A stretch of 64,000 nucleotides of DNA from Gammaproteobacteria bacterium DTU037 (GTDB lineage Bacteria > Pseudomonadota > Gammaproteobacteria > Pseudomonadales > Pseudomonadaceae). Both the position numbers and the translations under genes were made by a program. How positions within the stretch are numbered: the first letter of the stretch is position 1; each line of letters starts with the position of its first letter. Where the stretch lies: assembly GCA_001513025.1 (NCBI GenBank), contig LFRZ01000132.1, positions 8,585-72,584 on the forward strand. The letters are read 5' to 3'. Positions 1,821 to 32,508 of the stretch are shown here, piece after piece. Below the pieces are notes generated by a model. That model was not told the DNA's origin, did not search any database, and worked only from the letters and a program-made list of their open reading frames with translations.

Positions 1821-3647
1821 ATGCGCGTATTTCTATTTTTTATCAGCGTGCTTCTATTCAGCCATCAGGCGTCTGCACGCATTGTGAGCAGTCACGGTTA
1901 TGCGCAATTTGCCGAGCTGAAATACGACGCCAACTTCCAACATTTTGACTGGGTCAACCCCCTGGCCCCCAAAGGCGGCAGTGTCCGTTTAATGGCCTTC
2001 GGCACCTTTGATACCCTAAACCCCTACACTTTAAAAGGCACCAGCCCCATCGGCACCTCTGATTTTTCCAGTTATGGCATCAGTGAACTGAATGAGCCGC
2101 TGATGGTGGGCAGTGGCCTATATGATCCATCCGGTGACGAGCCGGCCAGCGCTTATGGTTTGATCGCAGAAAGCGTGCAATACAATGCCAGCCGCAGCTG
2201 GGTGGTGTTTAATCTGCGCCAAGCCGCACGCTTTCATGATGGCACGCCAATCACAGCTAAAGATGTGGCCTTCTCCTACCGTACCTTGCTTAAATACGGT
2301 CATCCGCAATACCGCGCCTATCTACAAGAGGTAGCGCGGGTGGATATTCTTAGCAGCCACCGCATCCGTTTTGTATTTAAGCGCGCCGGCAATCCCTTGC
2401 TGATTTTGCGCATGGGCGACTTACCGGTTCTGCCAGAACACTACTGGCGCGACCAAGATTTTAGCCAAACCACCTTTAAGCCGCCCTTGGGCAGTGGCCC
2501 TTATCAAATTACGGCAGTTAAGCCGGGCCGCAGCGTAGTCTTTGAGCGGGTGAAAGATTGGTGGGGCGAGGATCTAGCGGTAAATCGCGGTAAGTACAAC
2601 TTCGACAAGGTCTATGTTGATTTTTACCGTGACAAAGATGTGGCCTTTGAAGCCTTTAAAGTGGGCAGCTTTGATTTCTATATTGAGCACCAAGCAAAAA
2701 ACTGGGCCAATAATTATCGTTTCCCCGATATTGCTAAAGGCAAGATAATTCGCGCGGAAATTGCCCATGAAATCCCCACACAAACCCAAGCTTTATTTAT
2801 CAATACGCGCCGTGCACCCTTTCAGAACAGTGCGACACGTCACGCCCTGACGTTATTGTTCGACTTTGAATGGGCCAACAAAACCTTATTTAATAACGCC
2901 TATCAACGCGCCAACAGTTACTACCCCAACAGTGACTTTTCAGCGCGTGACAAGCCCAAAGGCGCCGAGTGGTTATTGCTCTCCAAGTGGCGCGAACAGC
3001 TGCCGCTGGCGTTATTTTTAGAGCCTTTTAGTTTAGAACCTACCGAAGCTCGTGGCATTCCCCGCGAGACCTTACGTAACGCCTTAGGTTTGTTGGCTCA
3101 AGCCGGCTGGCGCAGTACCACCAAAGGTTTAAAAAACAAACAAGGACAACAGCTTGAGCTAGAGATTCTCTTAGTCAACCCCAGTTTAGAGCGGATTTTA
3201 CAAGCCTATATCAACACCCTTAATGAGGTCGGTATTGCCGCGCGGATGCGTACAGTCGATCGCGCGCAATATAAGCAACGTTTGGATAATTTTGATTTTG
3301 ATCTAACTTTATTAACCTTGCCACAATCGCTCAGCCCTGGGCTTGAGCAATGGCAGTACTTCCATTCTTCGCAAGCGATGATCAAGGGCAGTAAGAATTA
3401 TGCGGGCATTAACAGCCCGGTGATTGATGATTTGCTTGAGCATTTACTCAATGCAAAAACCTATCGAGAACAGCGCACCGCCGCGCGAGCTTTGGATCGC
3501 GCCTTACTCTGGAACTACTACAGCATCCCAAACTGGTATATTAGCCATCACCGTATTGCCTACCAGAACCGTTTTGAGTTTGTACGCATCCCACCCTACA
3601 CATTAGGCTTACGCGCTTGGTGGTTAAAACCTTCGGAGATTAAATAA
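1821..3647 (+). CDS. YejA-like extracellular solute-binding protein (family 5), first copy
   Basis: Periplasmic binding protein of an oligopeptide/microcin-type ABC importer. The cleavable signal peptide (MRVFLFFISVLLF then ASA) leads into family-5 (SBP_bac_5) sequence with NPLAPKGG near the N-terminus and FHDGTPITAKDVAFSY about residue 140, both typical of YejA. The frame opens at TTG 1809, but ATG 1821 is chosen because it starts the signal peptide and has AAGGG upstream. The stop overlaps the next start by one base (TAATG), so it is translationally coupled to a paralogous binding protein. The substrate is probably a peptide, by analogy with Escherichia coli YejABEF; that is inference. Confidence 0.9.
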   Translation: MRVFLFFISVLLFSHQASARIVSSHGYAQFAELKYDANFQHFDWVNPLAPKGGSVRLMAFGTFDTLNPYTLKGTSPIGTSDFSSYGISELNEPLMVGSGLYDPSGDEPASAYGLIAESVQYNASRSWVVFNLRQAARFHDGTPITAKDVAFSYRTLLKYGHPQYRAYLQEVARVDILSSHRIRFVFKRAGNPLLILRMGDLPVLPEHYWRDQDFSQTTFKPPLGSGPYQITAVKPGRSVVFERVKDWWGEDLAVNRGKYNFDKVYVDFYRDKDVAFEAFKVGSFDFYIEHQAKNWANNYRFPDIAKGKIIRAEIAHEIPTQTQALFINTRRAPFQNSATRHALTLLFDFEWANKTLFNNAYQRANSYYPNSDFSARDKPKGAEWLLLSKWREQLPLALFLEPFSLEPTEARGIPRETLRNALGLLAQAGWRSTTKGLKNKQGQQLELEILLVNPSLERILQAYINTLNEVGIAARMRTVDRAQYKQRLDNFDFDLTLLTLPQSLSPGLEQWQYFHSSQAMIKGSKNYAGINSPVIDDLLEHLLNAKTYREQRTAARALDRALLWNYYSIPNWYISHHRIAYQNRFEFVRIPPYTLGLRAWWLKPSEIK

Positions 3648-5464
3648 TGCTGACTGTGCTACGTCGCGGTTGTTTATCACTGTGTATCTTGGTCTGTAGT
3701 GCTGGCGTGTTTGCCCAGCCGCAGCATGCAATGACGCTTTACGATGAAGCGCCTAAGTACCCCAGCGACTTCACTCATTTTGATTACACCAATCCAGATG
3801 CGCCCAAAGGTGGTACCTTGCGTCTAGCTGGACTCAATGGTTTTGATAGTTTCAACCCTTTTATTCCTAAGGGTAATGCGGCCGATCAGATTGGTTTACT
3901 CTACGACACCCTCACCTATCACTCTGCTGATGAGCCTTTTACTGAATACGGTCTGCTCGCCGAACGTATTGAAAAAGCCGCTGACAACAGCTTTGTGCGT
4001 TTCTATCTTAATCCTAAAGCGCGCTTTAATGATGGCCAGCCAGTCACCGCAGAGGATGTGCTATTTACCTTTAATACCTTGCTAGAAAAAGGCCACCCGC
4101 TGTATCGCCATTATTATGCCGATGTGGCCGAGGTTGTCATCGAAAATCCACTGCAAGTACGCTTTGATTTTAAACACAACAACAACCGCGAACTGCCTTT
4201 AATTCTCGGTCAGTTGCAGATTTTGCCTAAGCATTGGTGGGCCGAGCGCGACTTTAGCAAGACCAGCCTAGAAGCTCCACTGGGCAGTGGGCCTTACCGC
4301 TTGACTCGGGTGGAGGCAGGACGCAGCTTGCATTACCAGCGGGTCAGTGACTGGTGGGCGCAAGATTTACCGGTGGCCCGTGGCCTGTATAATTTCGACG
4401 CCATCACTATCGATTACTATCGCGATATGTCCGTGGCCTTAGAAGCCTTTAAAGCGGGTCAATTTGATTTCAACTTGGAGTACTCGGCTAAAGACTGGGC
4501 CACAGGCTACAACTCACCGGCTTTACGCAGCGGCCAGATCCTACAAAAAGAGATCAAAAACCATAACCCAGTGGGCATGCAAGGCTTCACCTTTAATATC
4601 CGCAAACCCATGTTCCAAGATCCACGGGTGCGCGAAGCAATTGGCTTGCTGTTTGATTTTGAGTGGACCAATAAACAACTGTTTTACGGCGCGTATCTAC
4701 GCACGCAAAGCTTTTTTGCCAACTCAGAATTAGCCTCCAGTGCTTTACCCTCTACCGACGAGCTGGCTCTTTTAGAACCCTTACGCGGCTCAATTCCAGA
4801 AGAGGTCTTTACCAAGGTTTATCAAACGCCGGTCAGTGACGGCACGGGCATTATTCGTGAGCGCCGCCTCGAAGCCTGGCGTTTACTGCAAGAGGCGGGT
4901 TACCGCATTGAAAATGATCAGATGGTCAACGCCCAAGGCGAACCCTTGGCTTTTGAATTTATTATTGCACAGGCCAATTTAGAGCGCGTGCTGTTGCCGT
5001 TTAAGCGCAATTTATCTGAGTTGGGTATCGAGATGACCATCCGTCGTACTGATGTCTCGCAATACATTAACCGGATGCGTTCACGGGACTTTGATATGAC
5101 CTCCAGTATCTGGTCACAATCCAACTCTCCAGGTAACGAACAACGGGATTTCTGGCACTCCAGCAGCGCGGATAATCCTGGCAGTCGTAATTTTATCGGC
5201 CTGCAAGACCCAGCCATCGACAGCTTGGTCGAAGGCTTAATCAACGCGCCCAACCGTGCCAGTTTAATCAACTATGCGCGCGCCTTGGATCGGGTTTTAC
5301 TCTGGGGCCATTATGTGATTCCCAATTACTATATCGACACTTGGCGCACCGCCTATTGGCAGCACTTAGCACAACCAAAAGTCGCACCTCTGTATGACTA
5401 TGGCCTAATGACTTGGTGGATTAAACCCGACGCCATCAAGCGTTCTCCTGCGGCGGAGCAATAA
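3647..5464 (+). CDS. YejA-like extracellular solute-binding protein (family 5), second copy
   Basis: Second binding protein of the same importer and a clear paralogue of its upstream neighbour: both carry NP-x-APKGG, FDG/HDG-x-P-x-TA-x-DV and G-SGPY motifs in the same order and both end in a TWWIKP/AWWLKP-like tail. The signal peptide runs to about residue 23 (VFAQPQ). The start overlaps the preceding stop, and the stop is two bases before the permease gene, so the five genes form one operon. Two binding proteins with one permease pair suggest the importer handles two ligand classes. Exact ligand unknown. Confidence 0.9.
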
Positions 5465-5466
5465 CT

Positions 5467-6555
5467 ATGCTGGCCTATATTCTTCGGCGCTTACTGCTGA
5501 TTATTCCCACCTTGCTGGGTATTTTAGTGGTCAACTTTATTATTATTCAGGCCGCACCCGGTGGCCCTGTGGAGCAAATGATTGCCAAGCTCGAAGGCTT
5601 TGATGCCGCAGCTGGCGGTGCCACTGGGCGTATTTCTGGCGGTGGCTCAGAAGTGTCCAGCAGTTCCGCCAGCAACTACCGTGGTGCGCAGGGGCTTGAT
5701 CCTGAGCTGGTGCTGGAAATCGAAAAAATGTATGGCTTTGATAAGCCGCCGATTGAGCGTTTTTGGATTATGCTAAAAAACTATGCCCATTTTGATTTTG
5801 GCAATAGCTTTTTCCGTGACGCTAAAGTGACGGACTTAATTCTGGAGAAAATGCCGGTCTCTATTTCCCTTGGGCTTTGGAGTACCCTGCTGATGTATTT
5901 GATTTCCATACCCCTGGGGATCAGTAAAGCGGTACGCCATGGCAGCGCTTTTGATGTATGGACCAGTTCGGCAATTATTCTAGGCTATGCGATTCCGGCC
6001 TTCTTATTTGCGATTTTATTGGTGGTGGTGTTTGCCGGTGGCAGTTATTTAAGCTGGTTTCCGCTGCGCGGCCTCACCTCAAACAACTTTGAAGAGTTGA
6101 GCCTGCTGGGTAAAGTTGGCGACTATTTCTGGCACTTAGCCCTGCCGGTCACAGCCTTAGTCATAGGTAACTTTGCCACCTTGACCTTACTCACTAAAAA
6201 CAGCTTTTTAGATGAAATCAATAAGCAATATGTAACCACCGCGCGGGCCAAAGGCTTGCCTGAAAACAAAGTGCTCTACGGGCACGTGTTCCGCAATGCC
6301 ATGCTGATTATTATTGCTGGCTTCCCTGCGGCCTTTATTGGCATGTTCTTTACCGGCTCCTTGCTGATTGAAGTGATTTTCTCACTCGATGGTCTAGGGC
6401 TACTGAGTTTTGAAGCGGCAATTAACCGCGATTACCCGGTGGTGTTTGGCACCCTATTCTTATTCACCTTGCTGGGTTTACTGGTTAAATTGATCGGCGA
6501 TCTCACCTACACCTTGGTCGATCCTCGTATCGACTTCAGCAGTCGGGGGAACTGA
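5467..6555 (+). CDS. yejB: YejB-like ABC transporter permease
   Basis: Inner-membrane permease of the Dpp/Opp superfamily, one half of the channel. It begins with the typical [20 protein letters not shown] first membrane segment, has a long periplasmic loop, and carries the ATPase-contacting EAA loop [20 protein letters not shown] near residue 260. A Gly/Ser-rich insertion lies at about residues 48-75 ([20 protein letters not shown]), which is a low-complexity linker in the first loop. Length of 362 residues fits YejB. Followed after one base by its partner permease. Confidence 0.92.
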
Positions 6556-30018: not shown

Positions 30019-32070
30019 ATGTCGCTAAACAAACACCCTCTCGTGCTCGCTATCAGCCTAGCCACGCTACCTTTATCTCTAGCCCATGCGCAAAACAACG
30101 CGGCACAACTGCCCACCGCCATTGTCAGTGCGAGTGCTCTGGCTCAATCGGCTACACAAATGGTTAACGCTTCAGAAGTGCTCGAAGACTCGCAACTCTT
30201 ACTGCAGCGTCAAGCCACCTTAGGTGACACCGTGAAAAACATTCCGGGTGTGCGTGGCAGCTCCTTTGGTGCCGGTGCCAGCCGTCCGGTGATACGCGGT
30301 ATGGATGGCGCACGTGTCAAAGTGCTATCGGATGGCGTAGGCATGCTAGATGCTTCAACCCTAAGCGCTGACCATGCTGTGACTACCGAACCGTTGTTAC
30401 TGGAACGCATTGAGGTCCTTAAAGGTCCTGCGACTCTACTCTATGGTGGCGGTGCAATTGGCGGCGTAGTGAATCTGATCGATAAAAAAATTCCTACCCA
30501 ACAACCGGAAAATGGCCATCAAGTCGATCTCGCATGGCAAGGTAATACGGTGGCTAAGGAAAGTACGGCAATCGCTGGTGCAACCTTAGGCTTAGGTGAT
30601 TTTGCTCTGCGAGTCGAGGGCTTAAAACGCGATGCTGATCCCTATCGTCTAGCCAGTCATGAAGACGGTTCACGCTCGAAAAAACAAACGGGGTCGTACA
30701 ACGACACCAGTACCGGCACTCTAGGCTTAAGTTGGATTGGTGATGAGGGTTATTTAGGGGTGGCCTATACACGTCAAGCCAATGAGTACGGCTTACTCGC
30801 TCACGAAGAAGGTCATTGTCACACGCACGGACATGGCGCAAAGCTAAGCTGGCATTGCGGCAGCCACGGCGGGCATGGACACGATGATGAGCATGAGCAC
30901 GGCACACCTTATATTGATATGGTGCAAAAACGTTGGGATGTGCGTGGTGAATATAACAATCCTGTTGCTGGTTTTAGCTTGGCTAAATTGCGTTTAGCGC
31001 ACAGCGATTATCAGCACGAAGAAATTGAAGGTCAGGATGTCGCCACTCGCTTTGATAACAAAGCCACTGATGCGCGTTTAGAGCTGACCCATGATCCGTT
31101 GTTTGGCTGGCGTGGCACCATCGGTGGACAAAGCAATCGACGTGATTTTAAAGCGTCGGGTGAAGAAGCCTATGTGCCCGCCACCTTAACCACAAACCAT
31201 GCGTTGTTTGTTTTAGAGGAATATCAATGGAATACCTTGCGTTATGAGTTGGGTTTACGTCATGAATGGCAAAGCATTGACGTGCGCAAAGGTAGCAAGC
31301 CTGATAAAAACCATAATGGAACCTCAGCCTCTCTAGGTGCAGTTTGGGATTTTGCTGATGATTACAACCTCGGTGTTTCTTTTTCTCGTTCACAACGTTT
31401 ACCTGAAGCTGAAGAGTTATATGCCTTTGGTCCGCACGCAGCGAGTCGTACTATTGAACAAGGAAATACCCAGCTTGAGAAAGAAACATCGCACAACATT
31501 GAGCTGACTCTACGCAAACACCAAGGCGCTTTAACCTATAGTTTGAGTCTCTATCAAAACCGTATCAATGATTATATTTACGGCAAAGATACCGGAGAAC
31601 GCCCCGGTGCTGATTATCGAGTTATTTCCTACCAGCAAGACAATGCAGTGTTTCGTGGTGTCGAAGGTCAAATGGCCTATCAATTCAAGCATGGCTTCAC
31701 TGGCACAGTATTGGCTGACCATGTACGCGGAAAATTACGCGGTAAAGGTGGTGATTTAGCACGTATCCCTGCTGATCGAGTGGGTCTACGTTTACAGCAA
31801 GCCTTTACTTCTGCACTCGATGCTCAACTTGAGTTTTGGCGAGTACAACAGCAAAACAATACTGCTGATTACGAGACTCAAACGTCAGGCTATAACATGC
31901 TGGGTGCCGCACTGACCTATCAAGGCCAGCTTTCCAGCAGTGATTACACCCTGTATATACGTGCAGATAATCTGTTAAACGTTAAGGCGCGTGAGCACAG
32001 CTCTTTTATTAAAGATGATGTGCAGTTACCCGGCCGTAATCTGACTGCGGGTGTTAAGTTCAGTTTTTAA
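30019..32070 (+). CDS. znuD: TonB-dependent zinc receptor, ZnuD-like
   Basis: Outer-membrane, energy-coupled importer. The signal peptide ends AHA; the plug domain follows (LGDTVKNIPGVRGSSFG, PVIRGMDGARVKVLSDG, ERIEVLKGPATLLYGGGAIG), then a 22-strand barrel ending in terminal Phe. A His/Cys/acid-rich external loop at about residues 260-297 (EEGHCHTHGHG and GHGHDDEHEHG) is the hallmark of ZnuD zinc receptors. A perfect Zur core upstream strongly supports zinc as ligand. Length 683 residues. It is monocistronic and divergent from tusD. Confidence 0.9.
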   Translation: MSLNKHPLVLAISLATLPLSLAHAQNNAAQLPTAIVSASALAQSATQMVNASEVLEDSQLLLQRQATLGDTVKNIPGVRGSSFGAGASRPVIRGMDGARVKVLSDGVGMLDASTLSADHAVTTEPLLLERIEVLKGPATLLYGGGAIGGVVNLIDKKIPTQQPENGHQVDLAWQGNTVAKESTAIAGATLGLGDFALRVEGLKRDADPYRLASHEDGSRSKKQTGSYNDTSTGTLGLSWIGDEGYLGVAYTRQANEYGLLAHEEGHCHTHGHGAKLSWHCGSHGGHGHDDEHEHGTPYIDMVQKRWDVRGEYNNPVAGFSLAKLRLAHSDYQHEEIEGQDVATRFDNKATDARLELTHDPLFGWRGTIGGQSNRRDFKASGEEAYVPATLTTNHALFVLEEYQWNTLRYELGLRHEWQSIDVRKGSKPDKNHNGTSASLGAVWDFADDYNLGVSFSRSQRLPEAEELYAFGPHAASRTIEQGNTQLEKETSHNIELTLRKHQGALTYSLSLYQNRINDYIYGKDTGERPGADYRVISYQQDNAVFRGVEGQMAYQFKHGFTGTVLADHVRGKLRGKGGDLARIPADRVGLRLQQAFTSALDAQLEFWRVQQQNNTADYETQTSGYNMLGAALTYQGQLSSSDYTLYIRADNLLNVKAREHSSFIKDDVQLPGRNLTAGVKFSF

Positions 32071-32090
32071 CAGCCTCTCGTAACTTTAAT

Positions 32091-32242
32091 TTTGCGCATG
32101 CTGTACTAAAAGACAACACAGCCGCTCAATGAGCAGCTTGTTCGTGTCGCGATAAGCGTAGCTAGGGATAGCGCAGCGCCTGAATCGAGGCAGGATGCCT
32201 CTTGAGGGAAAAGCGAGACGAACAAGCTGCGACATGCGCAAA
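32091..32242. repeat. Multi-armed structured intergenic element
   Basis: Nested inverted repeats between the zinc receptor and yggS: outer arms TTTGCGCATG (32091) and CATGCGCAAA (32233); second arms 18 bases long at 32133-32150 and 32213-32230, matching at 17 positions (GCAGCTTGTTCGT / ACGAACAAGCTGC core); and an inner hairpin GAGGCA-GGA-TGCCTC at 32187-32201. No gene is seen. It looks like an extragenic repetitive or mobile non-coding element, or a structured RNA; copies elsewhere could not be searched. Confidence 0.6.
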
Positions 32243-32291
32243 GCGTCCTAGATGCTTTGCTTTATTAAAAGCGTCAGTATGAGTGCATGTC

Positions 32292-32392
32292 GTACTTCGA
32301 AGTAGGTGTTTATCCGTCGATGAACCCATCCGGGGTTCAACTCCGGCGTTGCGCCATCCATGGCTCCGCTCATCACACCTACCCCGAAGTAC
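32292..32392. repeat. Second structured intergenic repeat with nested hairpin
   Basis: Outer arms 18 bases long at 32292-32309 and 32375-32392 match at 16 positions (GTACTTCG...TAGGTGT / ACACCTA...CGAAGTAC). Inside lies a perfect hairpin TGAACCC-ATCCG-GGGTTCA at 32321-32339. It is adjacent to the first element and together they fill the 438-base gap upstream of yggS. The open frame across it on the minus strand is not believed to be a gene. Confidence 0.55.
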
Positions 32393-32508
32393 TCGTTGAC
32401 CTTATGCAGGGTCTGCGCTAAAGCAACACGAGTCAGTTGCACATCACTAAACCCGCCAAGCCTGATAGACTGCTTGGCATATTTGTTATGTGTTTACAGG
32501 AGTCTACC

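Follow-up and report, generated by a model that had tools for sequence, protein, structure and literature searches.

Two hairpin-rich elements lie side by side between an ORF of 683 aa ending at 32070, which we take to be TonB-receptor-like, and a yggS-containing ORF, and the question raised by this locus is what kind of element they are. The window, i.e. the whole stretch of 64,000 nucleotides that was analysed, corresponds to G000:C15:8585-72584 in a draft genome of 2.83 Mb. The name yggS was taken from the original prediction. The prediction had described two adjacent elements with nested symmetry and had proposed a mobilised non-autonomous repeat, an attC-like site or a structured RNA linked to yggS. 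The nested arms were recovered by an arm search as described (outer arms 10/10, second arms 17/18, arms of the second unit 16/18), and the six-base hairpin (GAGGCA/TGCCTC) and the perfect seven-base hairpin (TGAACCC/GGGTTCA) were found in the sequence. What could not be seen there is that a single element is present twice, once on each strand, that this element is multi-copy and that each unit holds an extra hairpin, P2 (Table 1).

Table 1. Positions of the two units and of their parts in the window
Feature	Position	Strand	Basis
Outer 10-base arm	32091..32100	+	partner 32233-32242, 10/10 matched; absent from family consensus
Unit 1 5′ leader	32075..32119	+	flank conservation; edge approximate
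Unit 1, copy of subtype A	32120..32242	+	R1 covariance-model match, 114.8 bits
Unit 1 P1 5′ arm	32133..32150	+	pairs with 32213-32230, 17/18 complementary; P1 pairs covary
Unit 1 P2 hairpin GCTA-GGGA-TAGC, loop with GGA	32161..32172	+	sequence, fold
Unit 1 P3, CAGGATG loop; holds six-base hairpin 32187-32201	32179..32208	+	sequence, fold
Unit 1 P1 3′ arm	32213..32230	+	complementarity to 32133-32150
Terminator-like hairpin right after unit 1, overlapping its 3′ tail; locus-specific	32238..32260	+	terminator search
Unit 2, copy of subtype B	32280..32405	-	R1 covariance-model match, 125.6 bits
Unit 2 P1 3′ arm	32292..32309	-	complementarity to 32375-32392
Unit 2 P3 hairpin TGAACCC-CGGAT-GGGTTCA	32321..32339	-	sequence, fold
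Unit 2 P2 hairpin GCCA-TGGA-TGGC	32353..32364	-	pattern position, fold
Unit 2 P1 5′ arm	32375..32392	-	pairs with 32292-32309, 16/18 complementary

A dispersed family in one genus

When the units were searched separately at the DNA level, both had relatives scattered over the own genome; on contig C85, the relative matched by unit 1 was also matched, in inverted orientation, by unit 2. The two units are divergent copies belonging to a single dispersed family, whose members measure about 115 nt. With all copies turned to the same orientation, the common layout comprises TCAAYGA, an 18-nt arm, GACAAGCG, the P2 hairpin GCCA-NGGA-TGGC and GYAGCG, followed by P3 with a GGA loop, GGGAAAA or CGGATAA, the second 18-nt arm and CGRCATGC. 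A covariance model, R1, was built from eight copies of the own genome, among them both unit 1 and unit 2. At E<=1, this model detected 17 places in the own genome, of which the eight lowest-ranking are weak. Copies were present in 12/12 genomes of the genus, with 14 to at least 61 copies each, the upper value being a lower bound as 61 was the maximum scored per genome; outside the genus, weak matches were obtained in 2/45 genomes. In the complete genome G008 there are 56 R1 places, including two that overlap each other in opposite orientation. For the alignment, 122 R1 matches were used, 116 of them distinct including three from other genera (L072, L073 and L085), and 18/122 rows were left untyped in the assignment of subtypes A and B. 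The repeat option of the original prediction is borne out by this multi-copy occurrence in the own genome and across the genus. No match was found with unit 2 in a plasmid collection. Among the matches listed for literature searches with the motif letters no related entry was apparent from titles and the beginnings of abstracts, and the genus family was not recognised among the matches listed for CsrA/RsmA repeats or sponges and for MITE-like or long-stem repeats.

At the locus itself, the 3′ end of unit 2 points at unit 1, and 37 nt separate their R1 matches. In the family, conservation extends weakly into a leader, over about 30-45 nt ahead of the 5′ end, and nothing clear is conserved beyond the 3′ end. 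The outer ten-base arms, which had been included in the predicted element, are present at this locus but were set aside as a part of it, since they do not belong to the family consensus. Three terminator-like sites were found at the locus against a mean of 0.7 in shuffled sequences; the short hairpin that separates the units resembles an intrinsic terminator, and an upstream transcript may consequently stop just past unit 1. No sigma-70-like promoter was found at the locus.

The unit pair is shared by genome G006 (L071), with 95.9% identity over 2474 bp. At L137 (JAAYFI010000020.1, a Gammaproteobacteria MAG) four copies lie before yggS, and the apparent counterpart of unit 1 has a P1 stem with double compensatory changes at two places (positions 2 and 4 of the arm) and one change from G-C to G-U, while a G-G mismatch corresponds to A-U in L137. 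At L138 no copy was detected at E<=1e-5. Capture of the arms from target sites was considered and set aside, because arms recur by subtype and the orthologues in the window and in G006 share the arms of unit 1.

Fold and strand-specific pairing of the stems

The fold is a three-way junction, in which an 18-bp stem, P1, encloses two hairpins, P2 and P3, whose loops contain GGA. GGA was found in the P2 loop of 107/116, in the P3 loop of 105/116 and in both loops of 98/116 distinct copies, and the spacing from GGA to GGA is 24-25 nt in 91 of the 98 copies having both. The letter preceding GGA is variable while GGA is kept, and the junction letters are conserved as strongly as the loops. The closing pair of P2 together with its loop reads A-N-GGA-U, with CAUGGAUG in 62, CAAGGAUG in 23 and CAGGGAUG in 14 of the 116 copies; that of unit 1 is AGGGAU. 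The P3 loop is NGGA and mostly not AYGGAY, and subtype A has CAGGAUG, CAGGAAG and CAGGACG among others. Compared with dinucleotide shuffles, unit 1 folds with a z-score of -4.92 (equalled by 0/200 shuffles) and unit 2 with -3.55 (1/200), and among the eight own copies there are two that show no advantage over their shuffles (z of -1.27 and 0.35).

Covariation was assessed in two alignments. In the MAFFT alignment of the eight own copies, which was made without structure but tested a structure obtained by folding one of these copies, 91.0% of 268 cells were paired and double changes occurred in 23/35 pairs; in 500 shuffles four of five measures were never reached and the fifth was reached by one, and slid registers gave far lower values. 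In the alignment of the 122 matches (116 distinct), which was fitted to R1 and hence to a model trained on the eight own copies, 96.2% of the cells were paired (95.2% for P1), with double changes in 18/18 pairs of P1 and 11/11 pairs of P3. The many compensatory changes in the stems bear out the structured-RNA option of the original prediction. Its proposed checks, a copy count and a covariance analysis, revealed a multi-copy sequence with compensatory changes rather than a single-copy sequence lacking them.

In a DNA hairpin the two strands are equivalent, each G-T facing an A-C on the opposite strand, so that an excess of G-U over A-C indicates pairing that is kept in RNA of the GGA-carrying strand. 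Such an excess was observed in P1, with 172 G-U versus 32 A-C. It was retained in 50 representatives with less than 80% identity (81 versus 20) and in those 85 of the 100 best rows that are free of gaps (125 versus 14). It was present both with the 5′ ORF in sense (117 versus 17) and in antisense (50 versus 12). P3 gave 27 G-U versus 10 A-C, and P2, which varies little, had no excess (6 versus 9). Moreover, 28 long-arm elements of other genomes, collected by a DNA pattern with strand-neutral scoring, showed 52 G-U versus 6 A-C, and 31 A-G versus 2 C-T mismatches. These 28 are the distinct elements kept from 70 loci (L239-L308); the matches of the order-wide pattern search include coding coincidences. 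L293 and L304 come from loci fetched with the TwoAYGGAY model RF01731 and the other 26 from the pattern search or its places. As a control, 67 further inverted repeats, drawn from the window and from 78 unrelated loci, gave 42 G-U versus 62 A-C. From these comparisons it is well supported that P1 is kept paired in the transcript of the GGA strand and not as a DNA palindrome. The G-U count could be raised further by C-to-U damage linked to transcription, yet this also requires a transcript of the GGA strand. That the stems vary and still stay paired on one strand is strong evidence of a constraint at the RNA level, and the element very probably acts there.

Arrangement and spread of the copies

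Genes were defined as greedily chosen ORFs of >=100 aa, and ORFs more than one quarter covered by an element were dropped, which biases the number of copies inside an ORF (1/122) to low values. Of 26 clusters in G008, 15 are located between convergent ORFs, 7 between co-directional and 3 between divergent ORFs, and 1 was unassigned. With copies at many sites, mostly between convergent ORFs in this complete genome, a specific link to yggS as originally predicted is not supported.

Inverted neighbours consisted of one A and one B copy in 41/41 typed pairs, a number that overstates the independent events as array copies are not independent, and tandem neighbours were of the same type in 7/7 typed pairs. 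The A+B pairs with facing 3′ ends have 30-39 nt between them in 14/16 cases, including the pair in the window; outside G008, the pair count omits L078 and L084 (overlaps) and L072, L073 and L085 (other genera).

In G008, copies have clearly been duplicated locally in tandem. Copies in different clusters of this genome have a median identity of 0.597, exceptions being array L117, whose halves were treated as different clusters (0.96), and two distant loci (0.913); judged by this divergence, they appear to be mostly old. At three sites compared with G006 and G009, the element was present in the own genome only, in G009 only, and in the own genome and G006, respectively. Since presence differs between species at these sites, mobility of the copies is plausible; the flanks were too diverged for the ends to be seen in a comparison for target duplications. 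The Y1 transposase family PF01797 had no match in the own genome and none in G004, which carries at least 61 copies; a match was obtained in 6/12 genus genomes, counted irrespective of linkage to the copies. Of the predicted mobilised repeat, the dispersal is upheld, and a mobilisation is plausible.

Several loci have further repeats. L117 of G008 (2374-6515) is an array of 13 copies, 8 of subtype B on the plus strand and 5 of subtype A on the minus strand, partly with a tandem period of 453 bp, and lies on both sides of an ORF of 447 aa on the minus strand. The best own copy, L309 (2272-2815, contig C85), is located between two imperfect direct repeats of about 85 bp (CCTCAGGCCATAC ... GGCCGAC), and beyond its 3′ tail there are more repeats of about 31 bp that resemble degenerate tails. 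The intergenic regions L333 and L324 of G009 are filled by another repeat with an inverted sequence of the GGGAGCGCGGGCG type, and direct repeats similar to it lie on either side of the G009 element at the second of the compared sites.

Relation to TwoAYGGAY RNA and proposed docking of CsrA

The closest known family is TwoAYGGAY RNA (RF01731, clan CL00106), with weak matches in both directions. TwoAYGGAY RNA has reportedly been on record since 2010. An Rfam scan of the whole window gave no family at gathering score, and a permissive scan of 32071-32450 returned three unrelated families only, far under their cut-offs. RF01731, with a cut-off of 43 bits, gave no score on the units of the window and at best 28.4 bits (E 0.03) in the own genome; no match at E<=0.5 was obtained at the genus loci L117, L118 and L137 with their many copies. 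Sub-threshold matches were found in 4/12 genus genomes, three of them on listed R1 places. Conversely, among the weak R1 matches L073 and L086 exceed the RF01731 cut-off and L072 and L085 fall short of it, the passing scores of R1-found relatives in G034 being 44.7 and 43.4 bits. When 12 loci from other genera were compared with Rfam, L282 was above the RF01731 cut-off and L269, L270 and L286 were below it. In relatives from other genera, two CAUGGAUG hairpins go together with stems that are unrelated in sequence. The pattern CATGGATG-N10-40-CATGGATG was present in 157/390 genomes of the order versus 11 for the reversed control (counted by eye, some matches being coding), and had no match in the own genome. 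Very high counts were observed in G296 (54+54), G222 (23+26) and G370 (22+28), where the reversed control gave zero.

As in TwoAYGGAY RNA, two adjacent hairpins with GGA loops are enclosed by a long, poorly conserved outer stem. The family described here differs by its NGGA loop in P3, its inverted A/B pairs and its high copy number per genome (14 to at least 61), and its P1 comprises 18 bp versus arms of 21-39 bp in the 28 elements of other genomes. On sequence grounds, it is a genus-wide RNA-level repeat related to TwoAYGGAY that lies below Rfam's membership cut-off. An architectural relative of TwoAYGGAY is thereby available that has tens of copies per genome and whose stems change freely yet remain paired on one strand only. 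In the available part of the 2010 paper, TwoAYGGAY appears as a table row, as a probable RNA that is not cis-regulatory, from human gut, gamma-Proteobacteria and Clostridiales (PMC2864571). Later, motif matches led to the prediction that TwoAYGGAY RNA binds CsrA, and a tandem GA was noted in one stem (PMC4333381, available part); in the available parts of the papers on this RNA its function is a prediction made without a test.

With moderate confidence, the two units are regarded as divergent, massively dispersed TwoAYGGAY-like candidate docking RNAs for CsrA/RsmA, and this protein is a somewhat better than even choice for the partner of the modules. The module would be transcribed from the GGA-carrying strand, probably as the 3′ end of a neighbouring mRNA or from a promoter of its own, and the rigid P1 would hold both loops in place for a CsrA/RsmA dimer, one loop for each of its two RNA-binding faces, with one dimer docked per module. 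The modules would either titrate CsrA or make the fate of the transcript carrying them depend on this protein. The csrA gene is present in 12/12 genus genomes in one or two copies and has 64 codons. The available part of PMC7652899 gives ANGGAN hexaloops and CAGGA(U/A/C)G repeats as sites bound by CsrA/RsmE; the distance that one dimer can bridge is 10-63 nt, with distances of more than 18 being best, and SELEX ligands mostly have four or fewer contiguous pairs. The GGA spacing of 24-25 nt is within this bridging range, and GGA occupies both loops in the large majority of copies. Counted against CsrA are that P1 is far more stable than the SELEX ligands required, that GGA binding alone leaves the conservation of the junction letters unexplained, and that RF01731 is silent on the units of the window and at three copy-rich genus loci, the double-CATGGATG pattern is missing in the own genome, P3 is mostly not AYGGAY, two own copies fold like shuffled sequence and no sigma-70-like promoter was found. 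With CsrB, RsmY and RsmZ the family shares GGA in hairpin loops, and the P3 of subtype A resembles the CsrB repeats; those RNAs, in contrast, are each one multi-site sRNA gene, whereas here two sites per module are spread over many dispersed loci. RsmZ (RF00166) was found in 0/12 genus genomes, a weak result as the model passed its cut-off in 0/14 control genomes. An unlikely extension of CsrA docking is a distributed sponge, in which dozens of two-site modules, mainly at transcript 3′ ends, would jointly set the level of free CsrA and spread like repeats, inverted neighbours surviving only as A+B because like pairs form long unstable palindromes; if so, transcription of many genes would feed back on a global regulator.

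The long stable stems would also suit an RNA-level element that is read by a factor other than CsrA, acting as an exonuclease block in 3′-UTRs or intergenic transcripts, as a site of RNase III cutting or by attenuation between convergent genes, between which 15/26 G008 clusters lie. There is a precedent in other bacterial repeats, whose effect on transcripts is mediated by RNase III or RNase E (PMC2229807, available part). Stability of a stem, however, needs neither GGA in both loops nor a fixed spacing of 24-25 nt, and would not explain that GGA is kept while the preceding letter is free; this reading is considered a minor possibility, though one of some weight.

The strand asymmetry bears on the readings at the DNA level. 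Movement of inverted doublets as single-stranded hairpins by a transposase acting in trans, as for REPINs or BIMEs, with the RNA fold as a by-product, would fit the dispersal of the copies, their mostly intergenic position, the inverted doublets, whose 3′ ends are 30-39 nt apart in 14/16 typed pairs, and the variation of copies between species, and compensatory changes occur in REPINs as well (PMC3116915, available part). A strand-specific excess of G-U is not predicted for a DNA hairpin, PF01797 is missing in the own genome and in G004, and the between-cluster copies of G008 are mostly old with their median identity of 0.597, so that this is improbable; the same evidence is compatible with an RNA module that may also move as a repeat. 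In being small, dispersed, mostly intergenic, structured and arranged in inverted doublets, the copies resemble REPIN/BIME and MITE-like repeats (ERIC, NEMIS, YPAL), from which they are distinguished by RNA-strand-specific pairing, the three-way junction and about 115 nt per half. Template-switch correction during replication, keeping palindromes matched without selection, would account for arms that differ widely between copies yet stay matched; treating both strands alike, it demands equal numbers of G-U and A-C instead of the 172 versus 32 and, outside the genus, 52 versus 6 observed, and it does not explain the conserved GGA loops, which makes it highly improbable. The attC-like sites of the original prediction would likewise be imperfect palindromes in clusters. 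attC sites have conserved outer boxes and a variable middle; the conservation here is the reverse, with variable arms and a kept core and loops, and this option is practically negligible.

For CsrA docking, many natural variants are now at hand for a binding test. If the link to CsrA is true, a dispersed repeat family would be placed inside a global regulatory circuit, between a selfish repeat and a regulatory RNA.

Two of the elements in other genomes, L275 and L276 of G347, carry tandem G-A/G-A mismatches at a similar place of the stem with differing flanking pairs, matching the tandem GA of TwoAYGGAY. On the complementary strand, the Yersinia sRNA Ysr224 (RF02770, cut-off 70 bits) gave scores below its cut-off at L275 (36.6 bits), L276 (25.5 bits) and L282 (24.8 bits), and Ysr224 may perhaps be an antisense reading of a TwoAYGGAY-like repeat.
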